Positions 957 to 11,713 of a DNA stretch of 31,661 nt are shown in pieces. The notes below the pieces were generated by a model. That model was not told the DNA's origin. It saw only the letters and a list, made by a program, of their open reading frames with translations, and made no database searches. Numbering within the stretch: the stretch's first letter is position 1; every line of letters begins with the position of its first letter. The DNA is taken from positions 1 through 31,661 of IMG/VR virus record IMGVR_UViG_3300008448_000384. The stretch is one strand, 5' to 3'. The translations under genes were made by a program, and so were the position numbers. Source of the DNA: a virus.

Positions 957-982
957 GGGGGCGAAAGCCCCCTTCTTTTTTA
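957..982 (+). terminator. Rho-independent terminator after gp32
   Basis: A GGGGGC stem arm (957-962), a GAAA tetraloop (963-966) and GCCCCC (967-972) are followed by TTCTTTTTTA. The 6-bp all-GC stem with a GNRA loop and T-tract is a strong terminator 8 nt after the gp32 stop. It overlaps the stop codon (980-982) of the convergent minus-strand gene. On the minus strand the stem is followed by only a short TTT, so termination in that direction would be weaker. Confidence 0.93.
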
Positions 983-3900
983 TGCAACCATAGATCCGCC
1001 AGCTGCTCTTCTATTCATACTCATGCTGTTACTGCCTGTACTCTCAACAAGAGATCCAGCAATTCCAGAAGCCAGTTGTTCAGCAAACCCGCCTTGTGGT
1101 ACAGCTGACATTGCACCACCCTCAGCATTTCCACCACCATTCGGTACTGTATGACCAGCTTTTTCACCAGCTCCACCAGCAACAACAATCGGTGGCTGCG
1201 CTGAACTTTTTGATAGTTCGACATCTGTTGATCGTCTATTAAGATCTGCTCCAGTCTCTACTGGTGTTGTTGCAGGTCTAGCAGTATTTTCTGCTGGTGG
1301 ACATGGAGCTCCACCGCCACCACCTGCTGGAGAAGCTGCAGCCATAGAACCACCACCTCCTGCACCACCACCGCTAGCACCTTCTGAAGGCATACCACTT
1401 CCACCACCGCCACCGCCTGCTCCTCCGGCAGGACTAGGTGCAGCAGTTGCACCACCACCCTCAGCACCTGCAGGTGCTGCATCTTTTTGGCCACCAGCTC
1501 CTGCTGCTGCCATTGCATCTGGGCTACCACCACCCTTGTATTCCCAATGCCACGGTTCGAATGGTTTTTGAAGTGGTCCTTTAAATCCAAACTTAGATGC
1601 GTTTTGGACCATCCACTTATAACCAGGGCTGTTTTGATTGCTACCAAAACTCATATCAAATGCAAGTCCCCAACCATGATTTGACTTGCCTGGAGTAGCA
1701 GCTAGATTTGGCTTTCTTCTCTTAACATCAACCTGCGCAGCATAAGATCTATAAGAGTCTGTTATGCCAAGATCTACTTTATCTTTTGCTGCAGCTGCTC
1801 TCATTGCTTTAAATGCATCAGCTGCTACTGGTTGAGCTTTATGACTTCCTACACCAACAGGTGCAAGAGATGATGGTGGCAACATACCGTTTTGACCTGA
1901 CTTATCACCAGCAGCAAGACCAGCTCCCTCAGTTGCTGGTCCAGTTGGTCCTGATCCTGGAGGAGCAAGTGCTGGTGGTCCTTCTGTAGCTCCAGGAGCG
2001 CCTCCAGCTCCGCCAGCAGGACCGGCACCTCCAGTACCTCCAGCACCGCCAGCCGATCCGCCAGCACCGCCTCCGGCTTGAGGAGCTCCTGGTGGCATAA
2101 AGCCTTCCATTGTACTACCTGGCGCAGAACCCGGAGCTGCAGGACCACCAGCACCACCAGCACTTGGTGATGGGGCGGATGTAGCACCACCACCTTCAGC
2201 TCCGGGTGCAGCAGATCCAGCAGCGCCACCGGCTGCTCCTAAATCTTTTTGTTCTTTATACTTCTTAAACTTTGCTTCTCTATCTGAGAGCCCGTTGAAA
2301 CCACCATTAATAAGTCTTGTTACTAATCTTGTATTTTCAAAGTCTCTTACTTTTGTCTTTACACGTGTATTCCAGTAAGCTATAGCAAGTTTTGCTGCTA
2401 TATCTGGTTGAGAAGCCAAGTCTGGATTATTCTCTAAGTCTACACCAATCTGTTGACCAAACGATCTATAGTTAGCACGACCAGTTAGTTGTACATACCC
2501 TCTACCTCTAAACTTATAACCATCACCTGGCTGTGTGTTACCTAAGTCTTTTCTTCCTTCATATCTTTTTTGTGTAGACGTTGGTCCCCAAATTTCTTGA
2601 AGATACTTGAAGTTACCACTTTCGTGCGCCATCTGTGCCATGAACTGAGCTAACTCAGTATCTTTTATACCAGCAGTTTTTGCAGCACTTAATAATGATT
2701 GTTCAGAACCACTTCTAGGTGTAGCACCTTTATCACCACCGGCAGAAGGTGTAACAGCACTTGGAGGACCAGCCTGTGTCGCTCCACCAGCTACAGAAGG
2801 AGTAGTTGCACCGCCAGCCGCAGGAGGTGTTTCACTGCTGCCACCTGCTGGAGCAGGTGTTGATGGTGTTGCAGAGTCACCGCCAGCAGCAGGAGCAGGT
2901 GTCGATGGCATTTCTGCTGCTCCGGTCTGAGGTTCACCAGACATAGATTTTTTCATCTCTTCGGCTGCAGATTTTTCAAACTCTAGATTTGATGCATCTG
3001 GCGTACCGCCATATAATCTTATGAATGCTTCTACTAATTCTGGACCAGAGCCACTGGTTTGCCCGCCACGAGCTTTAGCAACTTGACCAAAAGCCCATGT
3101 TCTAAGTTTCGAGATCTCTATATCTCTGTTATCTTTAATACCAGCAGCAGATACCGCTGCTCTTAAACCTTCCATAAAACTATTAAAGTCTTTAATTTTA
3201 CCAGATTTAACTGCAGCTATAAGATGTTCTCTTGGATCTTTAGAACTGATAGCAGCGTCTCTCATTACGACTTCTGCTTCTCTAAAATCTGCACCAGTAT
3301 CATATCTTTCTTCTGGAAGCGGATTAGTTTTCTGATCAATAGCAGATTGCGCCATTGCAGCATCTTTAATATCAACAAATGTCTGTTGAACAGTATCAAT
3401 TTTTCTGCCATCTTTAAGCGAAATGATGTTGCCTCTTATACCAACAACATCATTTTGCGTTAGATTAAATTTCTTTAGAAGCTCAGTTGGTGAAAGCTTC
3501 TTTTCTGGTATTGGTTTATCTGCAAATTGCTGTCTCTCAGCTTCTGGACCTTGTATGACTTGTGATCTAGCACCACCAGTTTTAAGAGTCTGATCAAATT
3601 TTTCTGCTTCTTCTGGTTTTTCTTTTCTAGATCTAGCAGCATTATATGCAAGATAACCAAGACCACCGACAGCAGTTGCACCTAATACATAAGGATTTGC
3701 CATCATAGCTAAACGACCTGCACCCATTGCAAGTCTTCCAGCAGAACCTAAAAAGCTACCTGCTCTTGAAGCTAAACCTGCTCCTCTTGCAGCCCCTCCT
3801 GCACCTCTAGGCGCAGGTCGACCTCTAGCTCCTCTACCTCTACGATTAATATCAATATCAATATTTGGTCCACCACCATTATCTGGTGGACCGTCATCTT

Positions 3901-4486
3901 GAGTTGGCACATATGATTGAGAAGTATCACCACTAAAAGCAGAAGCTTTTCTATCCATCATCATTCTATTAAGCATATTTTCCATTCTCTCTTGTGAGAA
4001 TAGAATATCTTCTAGCTTTTGATCTATAGCTCTAAGACTGCCTTTCATACTTCTAAGCATATTAGCATTATTTGCATTGCTATTTTTTATATCTGTTAAT
4101 TGTTTAGAGGTTTTTTCTGTAGCCGAATCTGATTTAGATTTGGTAGCATTACTTTCTTTTTTATCACCTCTATTCATCGTAGCTATCTTACCGAGAGGTC
4201 CAAACTTCTCAGCAATAGCTTCTTTACCAGCGGCTTTGGCCATCTGACCGATACTAGGACCGGTCTTACCTTTTATTTTATCGCTTGCTCTTTGTCCTAA
4301 TATACCAAACTTATCACCAATAGCTTCAGCAACAGAAGCTCTTGCCATTCCTCTGACTCTTTGACCGGTAGATAAGTTGGCTTCTGAATTATCCCAATTT
4401 CTGGCATTTCTAGTACTTTCCATGCGACTAGCACGAGATTCTACTTGTCTCTGTCTTTCTGGAGTACGCTGCTTTTTATCTGCCAT
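980..4486 (-). CDS. Tail-associated peptidoglycan hydrolase (GH19 + M15), tape-measure position
   Basis: This 1168-residue modular virion protein has several visible regions. The N-terminus is basic and followed by a coiled coil (around 125-175). A Gly/Ala-rich hydrophobic stretch lies at about 248-283. A GH19 chitinase/lysozyme-like domain spans about 595-745, with AHESGNF (catalytic-type Glu622) and YKFRGRGYVQLTGR from 657. An M15 D,D-carboxypeptidase/endopeptidase-like domain spans about 890-985, with SNHGWGLAFD (His937, Asp944) and EPWHWEY (Glu977, His980), the usual zinc-ligand and base pattern. Long Gly/Ala/Pro/Ser linkers separate them. It follows gp26/gp51, where T4 has gp27, gp28 and the tape measure gp29, so I infer a tape-measure-like tail protein that also cuts the cell wall at infection. 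I see no convincing gp29 sequence match. It could instead be a hub-attached lysin only. The start lies inside the end of gp51 (11-nt overlap), with GAAG just upstream. Confidence 0.8.
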   Translation of the reverse strand: MADKKQRTPERQRQVESRASRMESTRNARNWDNSEANLSTGQRVRGMARASVAEAIGDKFGILGQRASDKIKGKTGPSIGQMAKAAGKEAIAEKFGPLGKIATMNRGDKKESNATKSKSDSATEKTSKQLTDIKNSNANNANMLRSMKGSLRAIDQKLEDILFSQERMENMLNRMMMDRKASAFSGDTSQSYVPTQDDGPPDNGGGPNIDIDINRRGRGARGRPAPRGAGGAARGAGLASRAGSFLGSAGRLAMGAGRLAMMANPYVLGATAVGGLGYLAYNAARSRKEKPEEAEKFDQTLKTGGARSQVIQGPEAERQQFADKPIPEKKLSPTELLKKFNLTQNDVVGIRGNIISLKDGRKIDTVQQTFVDIKDAAMAQSAIDQKTNPLPEERYDTGADFREAEVVMRDAAISSKDPREHLIAAVKSGKIKDFNSFMEGLRAAVSAAGIKDNRDIEISKLRTWAFGQVAKARGGQTSGSGPELVEAFIRLYGGTPDASNLEFEKSAAEEMKKSMSGEPQTGAAEMPSTPAPAAGGDSATPSTPAPAGGSSETPPAAGGATTPSVAGGATQAGPPSAVTPSAGGDKGATPRSGSEQSLLSAAKTAGIKDTELAQFMAQMAHESGNFKYLQEIWGPTSTQKRYEGRKDLGNTQPGDGYKFRGRGYVQLTGRANYRSFGQQIGVDLENNPDLASQPDIAAKLAIAYWNTRVKTKVRDFENTRLVTRLINGGFNGLSDREAKFKKYKEQKDLGAAGGAAGSAAPGAEGGGATSAPSPSAGGAGGPAAPGSAPGSTMEGFMPPGAPQAGGGAGGSAGGAGGTGGAGPAGGAGGAPGATEGPPALAPPGSGPTGPATEGAGLAAGDKSGQNGMLPPSSLAPVGVGSHKAQPVAADAFKAMRAAAAKDKVDLGITDSYRSYAAQVDVKRRKPNLAATPGKSNHGWGLAFDMSFGSNQNSPGYKWMVQNASKFGFKGPLQKPFEPWHWEYKGGGSPDAMAAAGAGGQKDAAPAGAEGGGATAAPSPAGGAGGGGGGSGMPSEGASGGGAGGGGSMAAASPAGGGGGAPCPPAENTARPATTPVETGADLNRRSTDVELSKSSAQPPIVVAGGAGEKAGHTVPNGGGNAEGGAMSAVPQGGFAEQLASGIAGSLVESTGSNSMSMNRRAAGGSMVA

Positions 4487-4667
4487 TTTTCTTCGCTTTT
4501 TGTTCGTCTTCTAATCTTTTAAGATATTCATTTAGAAGTGTAACATAGATATCACGTTCGAATGGTATAATATTTTCAACTTCTTCTATCGAATATTTAT
4601 GATGCTGAGCCAAGCTAAATATTGTCTTATAGTAATTCTCAAGTGTATTATGGCTCAGCGAAACGTA
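4476..4667 (-). CDS. 51: gp51-like segment, expressed as -1 frameshift extension of gp26
   Basis: This is an unlisted 63-codon frame. It carries ENYYKTIFSLAQHH, YSIEEVENIIPFERDIYV and a charged helical tail, ending in TAA at 4476-4478. The PFERDIYV core is what I recall of the gp51 family in T4-like phages. In T4, gp51 is a catalyst of baseplate-hub assembly encoded next to gene 26. No ATG, GTG or suitable TTG precedes the conserved part: the frame is closed by TGA upstream and contains only one TTG, after the conserved YYKTIF. The frame is entered exactly from gp26 by a -1 slip on seven Ts (4667-4673). The fusion would have 235 + 63 = 298 residues. It overlaps the next gene's start by 11 nt. 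An unusual start such as CTG at 4658 is the main alternative. Confidence 0.8.
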   Translation of the reverse strand, partial: YVSLSHNTLENYYKTIFSLAQHHKYSIEEVENIIPFERDIYVTLLNEYLKRLEDEQKAKKNGR

Positions 4668-4673
4668 AAAAAA
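4604..4673 (-). promoter_or_regulatory. -1 ribosomal frameshift signal between gp26 and gp51
   Basis: Read on the minus strand, the gp26 codons GAT TTT TTT contain the heptamer T-TTT-TTT (4673-4667) in the X-XXY-YYZ phase needed for -1 slipping. After a 7-nt spacer (4666-4660) comes GCTGAGCCA (4659-4651). Its exact complement TGGCTCAGC lies at 4612-4604, giving a perfect 9-bp stem around a 38-nt loop. The zero frame stops at TGA 4657-4655, inside the first stem arm. These elements are seen directly. Their joint role as a programmed frameshift site is inferred from known slippery-site plus stem designs. A sequencing indel in the T-run is the alternative. Confidence 0.8.
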
Positions 4674-5371
4674 TCGTTTAACGTAGAGAGCACAATCTTC
4701 CTGTCATTACCAAGAGAGTTCTTATAATTTATTTCATATCTCACTGATGGAACATTATTAAAGAAGTCTTTAATGCTATCATAGACTTTAACCGGAAGGC
4801 TTTCTAAAAACTCATTAAGTTCTTTATCAGTAGCATTTTTGATATCGTGTATTTCGTCTCCAACAAATATCTTTTCAATACATGATTTAATCACATAATC
4901 TACAAGCTCGTTTAAATTGTCAGATTTTAAAAGCATTTCTTTATCATCATACATCTTTGCAGAAGGATGTCTTAATTGTATATTAATCTTATCATCAACC
5001 TTGATCATGTTTGATACAGATTCTGGAAATACAACTTCAACTTTATCTAGATCTACAACAAAATCATAGATCTTTTCATCTTCATTATCAACATATGAAA
5101 CATTGCTAGAGTTGCTGATAGAAAATGCTCTTATCTTTAAGAAGACATATTCAAGATCAAAGATAGTAAAATCATTAACGTTTGCATTAGGTGTTACTAT
5201 GCAATTATTTACTACTTGTTTGATAGCCGTAAAGATATCGATATCTTCTTTACTTTCTTTAGCAAAGAGAAGTATCTTTTCTTCTTTAACTAGCATTGGT
5301 CTAAGACGAATCTTCTTCTTAGTAGATGGAATAGTCACGTCAATAGTTGGGTGTGTAAGCTTAGGTAACAT
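4655..5371 (-). CDS. 26: gp26-like baseplate hub subunit (T4 baseplate protein family)
   Basis: The 238-residue protein begins LPKLTHPTIDVTIPSTKKK and continues IRLRPMLVKEEKILLFAKES, the N-terminal pattern of the T4 gp26-like baseplate family (T4 gp26 has 208 residues). Acidic and amphipathic helices dominate the rest, with no signal peptide or membrane span. In T4, gp26 belongs to the hub pathway and its gene sits beside gene 51, and the same neighbours occur here. The start is supported by GGAG about 9 nt upstream. It lies 23 nt after gp48, so the block is one transcription unit. The end overlaps the frameshift signal, so most ribosomes should make this 238-residue form and some the longer gp26-gp51 form. 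By position before the tape-measure-like gene it may act as a tail assembly chaperone, which is inference. Confidence 0.85.
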   Translation of the reverse strand: MLPKLTHPTIDVTIPSTKKKIRLRPMLVKEEKILLFAKESKEDIDIFTAIKQVVNNCIVTPNANVNDFTIFDLEYVFLKIRAFSISNSSNVSYVDNEDEKIYDFVVDLDKVEVVFPESVSNMIKVDDKINIQLRHPSAKMYDDKEMLLKSDNLNELVDYVIKSCIEKIFVGDEIHDIKNATDKELNEFLESLPVKVYDSIKDFFNNVPSVRYEINYKNSLGNDRKIVLSTLNDFFTFR

Positions 5372-5394: not shown

Positions 5395-6276
5395 TTATCC
5401 AAATTGGCCTGATAACCAATATTCTAATTCCCAAAAACTTAGTTTTAAATTAACGCTTTCAGGTGCACCATTCTTAAAGAACGATGGTACACCAGAAGCA
5501 GTGTAGTTTACTGAGACATCTGTACATACACAAGGTTTAAATTTATAAAGATAATCAGTTCCAACAAATGATATATTAAATACTTTTGGAAATGTGAAAT
5601 AAGTTCCACTAAATGCTATACCTGGTGCTGACCAATTATTTATTTGATTAATCATTTTTTTTAATTCATCAGATTCTGTCTGTGATTTAGGTGCAAGTTT
5701 CCAATTCATTTCATGTTTTTTATATGAAGGACCTTTAAGCATGATAACTTGAAAATTGTTTTTAGCCATACCAAATATTTGACCAGCAGCCCCAGCTACA
5801 TTAGAACCACCCGTCATTTTACTAAGAGCATTTCCAAAAGCAGAAGCAACAGCACCAGCACCTATGCCTGCTGCCATCGCACCAACATTTTTTTCAGTTG
5901 CTTCATCACTCTTTAAAGCTCCTGCTCCAGCAACCGCAGCTGCACCAAGATCACCAAGAGTATCAGGTGAATATTCAATATGATTAGCATCAGTTATTCC
6001 TGCAGGAATAGGTAATACTATTTGTCCTAATGTAGTCGTTTTTGATACTTCAAATGCATTAAGTCTTTCGAAAGAACCAACACCTATACTTACAAAAAAT
6101 CTAGGTTCATCTTCTAAAAAGTTATATCTTTGTGGTGAACCGGTTGCTTCTTTTTGTTTTTTACTAATATCATCTACTGGTGTTGTAGATGATACACCAA
6201 CAGCCGGTGTAGCTACACCCGGCGCTTCTGTTTTTTGTGTTGAATTAGACTGATTAGTCTGTAAATTAGATGCCAT
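5395..6276 (-). CDS. 48: gp48-like baseplate tail-tube cap
   Basis: This 293-residue protein (T4 gp48 has 364) is the likely protein that sits on the baseplate hub and starts the tail tube. A Ser/Thr/Pro-rich, probably disordered N-terminus (1-45) is followed by RFFVSIGVGSFERLNAFEVS. An Ala/Gly-rich segment comes in the middle (about 108-165). A beta-rich C-terminal half contains NNWSAPGIAFSGTYFTFPKVF, FKPCVCTDVSVNYTASG and a closing LKLSFWELEYWL strand, as in tube-like folds. It is the first gene of the minus-strand block, upstream of gp26. AGGAAAAA lies just before the ATG. A late-type octamer on the minus strand (6364-6371) would give a leader of about 80 nt. The call rests on fold pattern and neighbours, and gp54 is assigned to the other tube-like protein at 7329. 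Confidence 0.75.
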   Translation of the reverse strand: MASNLQTNQSNSTQKTEAPGVATPAVGVSSTTPVDDISKKQKEATGSPQRYNFLEDEPRFFVSIGVGSFERLNAFEVSKTTTLGQIVLPIPAGITDANHIEYSPDTLGDLGAAAVAGAGALKSDEATEKNVGAMAAGIGAGAVASAFGNALSKMTGGSNVAGAAGQIFGMAKNNFQVIMLKGPSYKKHEMNWKLAPKSQTESDELKKMINQINNWSAPGIAFSGTYFTFPKVFNISFVGTDYLYKFKPCVCTDVSVNYTASGVPSFFKNGAPESVNLKLSFWELEYWLSGQFG

Positions 6277-10200: not shown

Positions 10201-11184
10201 ATGAATTTTTTCTGGGCAGAAATAGTTGATGTTGAGAATGATGATGAAAAATCTGGTCGTGCTAAGATTAGAATCATGGGTGATCAGACTGAGCTTAAAG
10301 ACAGCGAATTAAGATATGCTCGTCCACTATTTCCAGTAACTAGTGCTTCTAAAGATGGAGCTGGTGCAACTCCAGCTTATCAAAAAGGTACACGTGTTCT
10401 TGGTATGTTTATTGATAACGATAAACAGATACCATATATTTTAGCTACTGCGCCAAGCGCTGGTAAACATGGCAGTTTAAGTCAAGAGAGTAGAGATATC
10501 CCATCTGGTATATCTAAAGATCCTGGAAAATTTAATATTAAGACAGAAGATCTAAGATATATTGTATCTGCTACAGGAGAAAGAAAACTTGATACTAAAG
10601 GACTAACTTCTTTTGCTAAGAAAGAAGCAAATGGTCCATCTAAGTTTGGTGATCTAAAAACACTTGGAACACAAGTGCCTACTGGTGCAAATGCTATAGA
10701 TCAAATAAAAAAAGTTGATCCATCAAATGCAGCCGGAACACTCGGTGCTGGAGCTCTTAGCATGATGAAGGGTTTGCAGAATTCACCTGCAGGCAAAGCT
10801 TTGAATATGGTAGGTGCTGCAGCGTTTCAACAAGTTTTAAAACAAGTAACACAAAATAAAAAAGAAGATAATAATAATAATTTACTATTGCAACTAATCG
10901 CTCTGCTGGAATTAGTTAATCAAGTTATTAAAACAATCGATTCGATAAACCCCAAAGATGCGGCGACATATAGATCTAATTCTAGTAAGATCATAAAATC
11001 TACTGAGACATTAAAGAATCAAATACTATATACACAACAATGTAATTTGATAGTAGATCTCGGCACTAAGATCGCAGATACTGGTTCAAGCAAATTGCCA
11101 TCTCACGTTGATTTAATTAAAACAAATAGCATAAAACTAAGAGAATCAATATCTGCACAGATACAAAGTTTAAAGAAGGTATAA
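10201..11184 (+). CDS. 5: gp5-like spike OB-fold protein without lysozyme domain
   Basis: Residues 1-95 of this 327-residue protein form a gp5/VgrG-type OB domain: FFWAEIVDVENDDEKSGRAK, RIMGDQ, LRYARPLFPVTSAS, KGTRVLGMFIDNDKQIPYIL. The rest is Ala/Lys/Asn-rich and helical, ending in a likely coiled region. T4 gp5 (575 residues) joins OB, lysozyme and beta-helix in one chain. Here no lysozyme motif is present, and the needle is the separate next gene 1 nt downstream. The protein likely sits on gp27 and anchors the needle trimer. Lytic function is probably supplied by the minus-strand GH19/M15 protein, which is inference. It is odd for its long helical tail, which has no T4 counterpart. Confidence 0.82.
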   Translation: MNFFWAEIVDVENDDEKSGRAKIRIMGDQTELKDSELRYARPLFPVTSASKDGAGATPAYQKGTRVLGMFIDNDKQIPYILATAPSAGKHGSLSQESRDIPSGISKDPGKFNIKTEDLRYIVSATGERKLDTKGLTSFAKKEANGPSKFGDLKTLGTQVPTGANAIDQIKKVDPSNAAGTLGAGALSMMKGLQNSPAGKALNMVGAAAFQQVLKQVTQNKKEDNNNNLLLQLIALLELVNQVIKTIDSINPKDAATYRSNSSKIIKSTETLKNQILYTQQCNLIVDLGTKIADTGSSKLPSHVDLIKTNSIKLRESISAQIQSLKKV

Positions 11185-11185
11185 T

Positions 11186-11713
11186 ATGGCTATTCAGAGA
11201 GACGATGAAAGATTACCAGAAACTACTTTTAATGCAAAGTATTCTAAAGTAAATGTAACAGAATCACCTGGTGGACATAGAATCACTATGGATGATACTG
11301 ATGGTGCAAAAAGATATAGAGTTGAACACCCGTCTGGAACTTATACAGAGATATCAGATGATGGTAAATCAGTAGAAGTATGTGTTGGTAATAAACAAAA
11401 CTATTTAAAAGGTGGTCTAACACTAACAATTCAAGAAAATGGCGATATAAAGATAGGTGGTCATGCAAGATTAAGTGTTGGAGCAGGAGCACATGTTGAG
11501 ATTGGTGGAGATGCATCTATCGCAGTCGGTGGTGATGCTCTGGTTCATGCTCATGGCAATTTAAAGATGGCAGGAGAAGACGTCTATATTGGAGCTCGTG
11601 GAAATATGGATCTCAATTGTTCTGGTAACTTTAATCTTCTTGTTGGTGGTAGTACAAACATTGCTTCCGATGGTAACATGACACAGACAGCTCCAAGGAT
11701 TGATCTGAACTAA
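11186..11713 (+). CDS. gp5 C-terminal-like beta-helix spike needle
   Basis: This 175-residue protein starts DDERLPETTFNAKYSKVNV, then GGHRITMDDTDGAKRYRVEH and HPSGTYTEISDDGKS. A long array of short GGDA/GNMD-type turns follows (GGHARLSVGAGAHVEIGGDA, then further GGDAL, GNLKMAG, GARGNMD and GGST turns) to the end. This is the repeat pattern of the trimeric beta-helix in gp5-C and VgrG tips. It should form the membrane-piercing needle below the OB domain. In T4 it is covalently part of gp5, whereas here it is its own gene, 1 nt after the OB gene. The PAAR tip gene follows one short ORF later. The stop overlaps the next start (TAATG). Confidence 0.9.
   Translation: MAIQRDDERLPETTFNAKYSKVNVTESPGGHRITMDDTDGAKRYRVEHPSGTYTEISDDGKSVEVCVGNKQNYLKGGLTLTIQENGDIKIGGHARLSVGAGAHVEIGGDASIAVGGDALVHAHGNLKMAGEDVYIGARGNMDLNCSGNFNLLVGGSTNIASDGNMTQTAPRIDLN

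Follow-up and report, generated by a model that had tools for sequence, protein, structure and literature searches.

In phage lambda a short tail assembly chaperone (gpG) and a long form (gpGT), which is extended by a -1 frameshift near the end of the first frame, act on the tape measure protein. Excerpts of a 2016 review describe this arrangement and state that, T4 excepted, the long-tailed phages have widely kept G-T frameshifting (PMC5009743). A comparable arrangement is found in IMG/VR virus record IMGVR_UViG_3300008448_000384, positions 1–31,661 (this whole stretch of 31,661 nt is termed the window), where a gene of the T4 gp26 type is followed by a gp51-type sequence in the -1 frame. The gp26-gp51 pair appears to be made as a short and a long tail chaperone by a -1 frameshift at the heptamer T TTT TTT; from sequence comparison, the probability of this reading is put at about 95%.

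The genes concerned have a history of their own. Vladimirov, Gautam and Davidson (Virology 2022;566:9-15) reportedly recognized T4 genes 26 and 51 as the tail assembly chaperone (TAC) genes of T4-like phages, and their abstract is said to state that frameshifting is apparently conserved in several T4-like groups and that the group to which T4 belongs relies on genes 26 and 51. In the passages that refer to this work, the PRFect paper (2024) cites it for T4-like phages in which frameshifting is replaced by a short gene together with a long fusion gene (PMC10885494), and the phage Adele paper (2025) credits it with poly-T slippery sequences in the TAC-N genes of T4-like phages (PMC12846349).

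As far as these citing passages go, the central idea, i.e. gp26/gp51 as a frameshifted chaperone pair, is already published. A first reading of the window made from its letters and open reading frames (the sequence-only reading) had taken the link between gp26/gp51 and the G/GT system to be undescribed; this has to be withdrawn, as the citing papers credit the chaperone role of these T4-like genes to the 2022 work. The window has the same genes and the same short/long logic as the TAC-N/TAC-NC pair described there: the PF12322 domain, the gp51 extension in the -1 frame and the slippery site at the end of TAC-N are all present. What is added here is one further phage as a clear example, together with a family survey of the stimulators and of the Ackermann-type exceptions.

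Anatomy of the gp26-gp51 junction

The elements of the junction, all on the minus strand of the window, are as follows.

4655..5371, minus: gp26 (TAC-N), zero-frame short tail assembly chaperone, 238 aa (PF12322, E = 2.9e-49; phrog_150, E = 1.6e-51; confidently predicted fold, pLDDT 91)
4657-4655, minus: gp26 stop codon TGA
4667..4673, minus: slippery heptamer T TTT TTT in the phase of gp26 (direct reading; TTTTTT[T/C/A] kept in 282/318 loci)
4660..4666, minus: spacer ACGTTTC, 7 nt (direct reading)
4651..4659, minus: 5′ arm of the presumed stimulatory stem, GCTGAGCCA, which holds the gp26 stop codon (pairing and folding)
4604..4612, minus: 3′ arm of the presumed stimulatory stem, TGGCTCAGC, within gp51 codons (pairing and folding)
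4476..4703, minus: -1 frame with the gp51-type tail (TAC-C), which would extend gp26 from about 4667 (phrog_634, E = 3.7e-26; C-terminal end of phrog_150)
4476..5371, minus: putative gp26-gp51 fusion (TAC-NC), 298 aa, product of the proposed -1 shift (translation; in T4 gp51 this architecture lies in a single frame)

The codon context of the heptamer is gaT TTT TTT acg, and it starts 16 bases before the gp26 TGA. Direct reading of the minus strand bears out what the sequence-only reading had reported, namely the heptamer in the gp26 frame, the 7-nt spacer and the perfect 9-bp stem with the zero-frame stop in its 5′ arm. The loop of this stem is 38 nt. Folding of the RNA from 4666 to 4590 gives a minimum free energy of -15.65 kcal/mol (z = -2.84; 3 of 200 shuffles were as good), and the minimum free energy structure is the 9-bp stem itself.

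A computed -1 shift at the heptamer yields the 298-aa fusion, which ends at a TAA stop (4478-4476). The -1 open reading frame opens at 4703. Its sole ATG, GTG or TTG is an internal TTG at 4613-4611, so that none of the three precedes the gp51 core, as had been claimed. This frame also contains a CTG at 4658-4656 and ATT codons. In a profile search the tail also matches the C-terminal end of phrog_23772, more weakly than that of phrog_150.

The window has a G+C content of 34% and holds 21 T or A runs of seven or more. Such runs being common, the T7 run alone would prove nothing.

Conservation of the heptamer

Matches to gp26 were found in 577 phage records. The loci examined number 318 and pool a first set of 77 IMG/VR relatives, scans with other clades, and isolate records. 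Two of the further scans retained the best 80 loci each, and one scan used two search patterns, one of them containing DFF, which favours FF residues there but not FF codons. An in-frame TTTTTT[T/C/A] near the gp26 end is present in 282 of the 318 loci. In the first set (29%–100% identical), 76 have an in-phase TTTTTTT or TTTTTTC that starts 7–16 nt before the gp26 stop, and the 77th (L062) is cut off. The 36 loci that have no heptamer consist of 13 of the T-even type, where gp51 is already in one frame, 21 of the Ackermannvirus type, and two that are truncated. The 282 loci are redundant; they represent 238 unique junctions, 140 clusters at 70% and 57 clusters at 50% amino acid identity. The 140 representatives used below were taken from heptamer-bearing loci only.

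Twelve isolate records are among the heptamer loci: Synechococcus phages S-PM2, ACG-2014h and S-CAM4; Pelagibacter phages HTVC008M and Mosig (in Mosig the heptamer is 31 nt before the gp26 stop); Sinorhizobium phage phiM12, Caulobacter phage Cr30, Ochrobactrum phage OC, and Vibrio phages D525 and Bakedbeans; and the Straboviridae PX29 and S13 (the S13 record is marked unverified).

This distribution bears on the possibility that the T7 run is a sequencing or assembly indel and that gp26-gp51 is one uninterrupted gene. Homopolymers are indeed prone to error. However, the identical junction occurs in three separately named IMG/VR contigs (L001–L003, one of which may be the window's own source), and a heptamer ahead of the gp26 stop recurs throughout the 282 loci, the twelve isolates included; an indel is thus a very improbable explanation.

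Among the 140 representatives the six T residues are invariant and the seventh base is free: 84 have C, 54 have T and two have A. Outside the heptamer, the same genes use TTT for 70% of Phe residues, and 69%–78% of their Asp, Asn and Ser(AGY) codons end in T. Chance agreement at the two synonymous positions is approximately one half, which over the 57 clusters gives a probability of the order of 1e-16 if these are independent (T-even and Ackermann types left out). In L206 and L231 the sequence is TTTTTTA, i.e. the slippery site is retained though the second Phe is lost. Other FF pairs within gp26 show the heptamer context in 4 of 132 cases; this was not used as a test, since the codon of the preceding residue may be unable to end in T. 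The proposed frameshift looks real and widely conserved.

The free seventh base also bears on transcriptional slippage, in which the polymerase would slip on the T7 run and a mixed mRNA population would join the two frames. A seven-base homopolymer can slip, and the window has a G+C of only 34%. But many relatives have just six T residues followed by C (84/140) or A (2/140). Moreover, the heptamer keeps strictly to the phase X XXY YYZ, with Z free, and an upstream or downstream element (see below) is at a set distance, as ribosomal slippage predicts. Transcriptional slippage is therefore considered improbable, though less so than an indel.

Proposed reading of the -1 frame

In 277 of the 282 heptamer loci the -1 frame matches a gp51 profile, and in the other five no such match was found. 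The counts of open codons and start codons below cover the 233 of the 238 unique junctions that are long enough. Counted from the heptamer, the -1 frame is open for a median of 64 codons, and fewer than 45 codons are open in only 3 of the 233 junctions; of control -1 runs inside gp26, 0.08% reach 45 codons.

The pattern of variation changes phase at the heptamer. In an alignment of 36 junctions with the spacing found in the window (the window's class), the entropies upstream of the heptamer, by zero-frame codon position, are 0.87, 0.63 and 1.51, with the peak at position 3. Downstream they are 0.58, 1.33 and 0.69 in the same zero-frame phase, which places the peak at position 3 of the -1 frame.

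The start codons in the entry region, which runs from the point where the -1 frame opens to 24 nt beyond the stop of gp26, are distributed as follows: 85 of the 233 junctions have an ATG, six have a GTG but no ATG, 56 have a TTG but neither ATG nor GTG, and 86 have none of the three. These counts are relevant to the view that gp51 is a separate gene, whose translation would begin close to the gp26 stop, either through reinitiation or at a non-canonical codon (CTG, ATT), and that the heptamer is incidental. The 85 junctions with an ATG weigh against a fusion as the only product, as reinitiation could also yield a separate gp51 there; the records of S-PM2, phiM12, Cr30 and Mosig annotate gp51 from such ATGs, and in the window the CTG lies at the gp26 stop. 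On the other hand, the 86 junctions with no ATG, GTG or TTG, to which that of the window belongs, indicate that reinitiation cannot be general, and the records of ACG-2014h and S-CAM4 omit gp51. A separate gene would also leave unexplained the fixed TTTTTT, the purine-rich elements 8–10 nt upstream of it (see below) and the absence of the heptamer in T-even phages, and T4 gp51 itself has the fused architecture. A separate gp51 is unlikely on this evidence, by a little less so than transcriptional slippage.

The -1 frameshift at the heptamer is thus preferred, and the programmed shift and the gp26-gp51 fusion proposed from the window are supported by the comparative evidence.

Probable stimulatory elements

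The stem was examined in the alignment mentioned above, which contains 36 of the 37 unique junctions in the window's class (L005, at a contig end, was left out). In this alignment 80.6% of the cells are paired, 27 cells are two-sided, and the covariation score is 0.210 (shuffled mean, 0.138); none of 500 shuffles reached any of these values. Slid versions of the stem are 19%–39% paired. The region downstream of the heptamer also folds better than expected in the family as a whole: the mean z is -1.42, compared with -0.46 in gp26 control windows (138 of 140 representatives). By class, z is -2.59 in the window's class (n = 22) and -1.14 in the -10 class (n = 97).

Several results count against a conserved stem. 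Within the window's class only four pairs show two-sided change, which was matched by 99 of 500 shuffles, and the ten further pair types were matched by 28 of 500. Some members of the class pair poorly or in a shifted register. In addition, RNAalifold gave no consensus structure for the same 36-row alignment, and the stem claim thus rests on the pair counts and the folding z-scores.

A second element, similar to a Shine-Dalgarno (SD) sequence, is located on the other side of the heptamer. An SD-like 5-mer lies 7–12 nt upstream of the heptamer, with a peak at 8–10, in 66 of the 140 representatives, compared with 1.1% of control positions. In many relatives, cyanophages included, the element is GGAGG or GAGGG at 8–10 nt. 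The Glu codon of the EG motif at this location is GAG in 56 of 80 cases; the corresponding figures are 21 of 103 for other EG pairs and 25% for the remaining Glu codons. Counted by spacing class, the element is found in 1/22 (the window's class), 0/8, 6/10, 58/99 and 1/1 representatives, so that the window's class shows no SD-like signal in this analysis.

The class with the strongest structure signal thus has almost no SD-like elements, and a weaker structure signal persists in the SD class. From these comparisons there are likely two kinds of stimulator: a downstream stem in the window's class and an upstream SD-like element in many relatives. A title and abstract search of the full-text literature, with Vladimirov et al. 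2022 outside its range, found no description of SD-like and stem stimulators or of the cyanophage sites.

A broader proposal, for which the odds are judged even, is that the heptamer has been kept across T4-related phages while its stimulator was switched, with SD-like elements in many lineages including cyanophages and a strong stem but no SD-like element in the window's. The Ackermannvirus-type heptamer would have decayed to TTTTC or TTTC, which may still allow a one-codon slip. If this is true, these phages form a natural series of recoding-signal turnover, finally resolved by gene duplication in T4.

T4 genes 26 and 51 and the Ackermann type

PF12322 matches both T4 gp26 (208 aa; 8.8e-64) and the first 201 residues of T4 gp51 (249 aa; 3.9e-52), and the C-terminus of T4 gp51 matches phrog_634 (1.2e-23). 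Aligned directly, the two T4 proteins match weakly, with 20% identity across a stretch of 161 residues (E = 2e-6 in this comparison). By these domain matches T4 gp26 and gp51 are paralogues. Since T4 gp51 consists of a gp26-type domain and the gp51 tail, it represents the long form, encoded in a single frame, and the short form is T4 gp26, which has the PF12322 domain alone; two genes would thus serve in T4 where the phage of the window uses one. The earlier statement that T4 has these as separate genes is correct but leaves something out, as gp51 is not a mere missing tail.

Unlike the window's pair, T4 genes 26 and 51 are divergent, and no heptamer is present. In RB43 a gp51-type gene is followed by a gp26-type gene in tandem. 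T4 gp26 ends in GLKEFFELL; its FF codons are TTC TTT and thus do not form a heptamer. The heptamer is absent from all 12 readable gp26 ends of the T-even type (the 13th, L087, is cut off). In one T4-type contig (L093, 3001-3746) gene 51 shows a break in the reading frame near residue 120, and the matched length is not a multiple of three; this is either a sequencing error or a broken gene.

In a quick tree the T4-type gp51 sequences form one clade (95). The T4-type gp26 sequences also group together, apart from the copy of RB43, which has a long branch and is placed beside gp51. The frameshift and Ackermann types are separated from the T4 types by a branch with a support of 94. As the tree has no root and many of its branches are weak, it offers no proof of direction, and any direction given to the change between the T4 and frameshift arrangements is conjectural.

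The 21 Ackermann-type loci are L095, L096, L098, L266–L281, L293 and L317. In place of the full heptamer these have shorter contexts such as GAGATTTTCAT, CCTTTTTCA, ACTTTTCA or CATTTCA, where either a one-codon slip or a different start may serve. The gp51 profile matches the -1 frame in 18 of the 21, the exceptions being L096, L098 and L293; in L096 and L098 a -1 open reading frame of the gp51 kind is visible by eye. Four sequences from these 21 loci group with the heptamer-bearing Bakedbeans and L282 (100), so the heptamer was probably lost there.

Predicted fold and neighbouring genes

The genes on either side of the junction are listed below.

980..4486, minus: large protein in the tape-measure position, 1168 aa, with GH19 and VanY domains (position; domain search)
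5395..6276, minus: baseplate tail tube cap homologue, the upstream neighbour (phrog_230, E = 6.8e-45)

The chaperone reading of gp26/gp51 is well supported. In a structural realignment of the gp26 model, the best matches were 3FGX (Z = 8.5), the HK97 tail assembly chaperone 2OB9 (Z = 7.9) and YqbN, 3KLU (Z = 6.9), the next ones having Z values of 5.1 and 3.7; 3FGX and YqbN are presumably relatives of phage chaperones. Residues 1–85 of the predicted gp26 superpose on 2OB9 with 3.1 Å over 83 residues. The predicted gp26 fold thus appears similar to that of the HK97 chaperone, but gp26 has some 150 residues beyond this part and the identity is 8%. In the record of Acinetobacter phage AM101, gp26, gp51 and gp28 are all annotated as assembly chaperones of the tape measure protein, and T4 gp51 is absent from the phage particle according to excerpts of a 2010 review (PMC3004832).

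Some observations speak against this reading. When the gp26 model was compared with the PDB by Foldseek, none of the matches was significant (2OB9 was third, E = 0.64). The same 2010 review, in those excerpts, reports genetic support for T4 gp26 as a hub component, unlike a pure chaperone (PMC3004832). Also, the tape-measure identity of the neighbour is inferred from position and synteny. This large gene directly follows the gp51 frame, its start overlapping the end of that frame by 11 nt, and its counterparts are called tape measure in the records of two relatives. Its product matches 5 of 11 sampled IMG/VR relatives by BLAST; a BLAST search against T4 gp27–gp29 and ten downstream genes of isolates gave nothing at E = 1, and no strongly hydrophobic segment was detected by the Kyte-Doolittle method.

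The large downstream protein is rich in Gly, Ala and Pro; its GH19 domain is of the chitinase/endolysin type and its VanY domain of the D-Ala-D-Ala carboxypeptidase type. Elsewhere in the window the gp5-type hub/lysozyme is present as two adjacent open reading frames on the plus strand, 10201-11184 and 11186-11713, which match the N-terminal and middle parts of phrog_430.

Proposed mechanism and significance

In the proposed process gp26 would be the short chaperone TAC-N, the counterpart of lambda gpG, and the majority of ribosomes would end at its TGA. A minority would slip one base back on T TTT TTT, both tRNA-Phe re-pairing on UUU, aided by the 9-bp stem 7 nt downstream. These ribosomes would continue in the gp51 frame and produce the 298-aa TAC-NC, the counterpart of gpGT. 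The short and long forms would then coat the tape measure protein encoded next, recruit tail tube subunits, and depart. That the shift occurs in cells, how efficient it is, how the tRNAs act and that the tape measure protein is bound are what we infer. The analogy with lambda G/GT that had been drawn from the window is supported by the comparative evidence; no sequence relation between the two systems is shown, and the lambda slippery sequence differs from that of the window.

The finding bears on the annotation of a gene pair that is widespread in T4-related genomes. In the 12 heptamer-bearing isolate records gp51 either is missing or is annotated as a separate or a hypothetical gene; none of them gives a joined frameshift gene. 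It also ties the poorly understood T4 “hub assembly” proteins gp26 and gp51 to the general tail chaperone mechanism, a link that itself dates from 2022.

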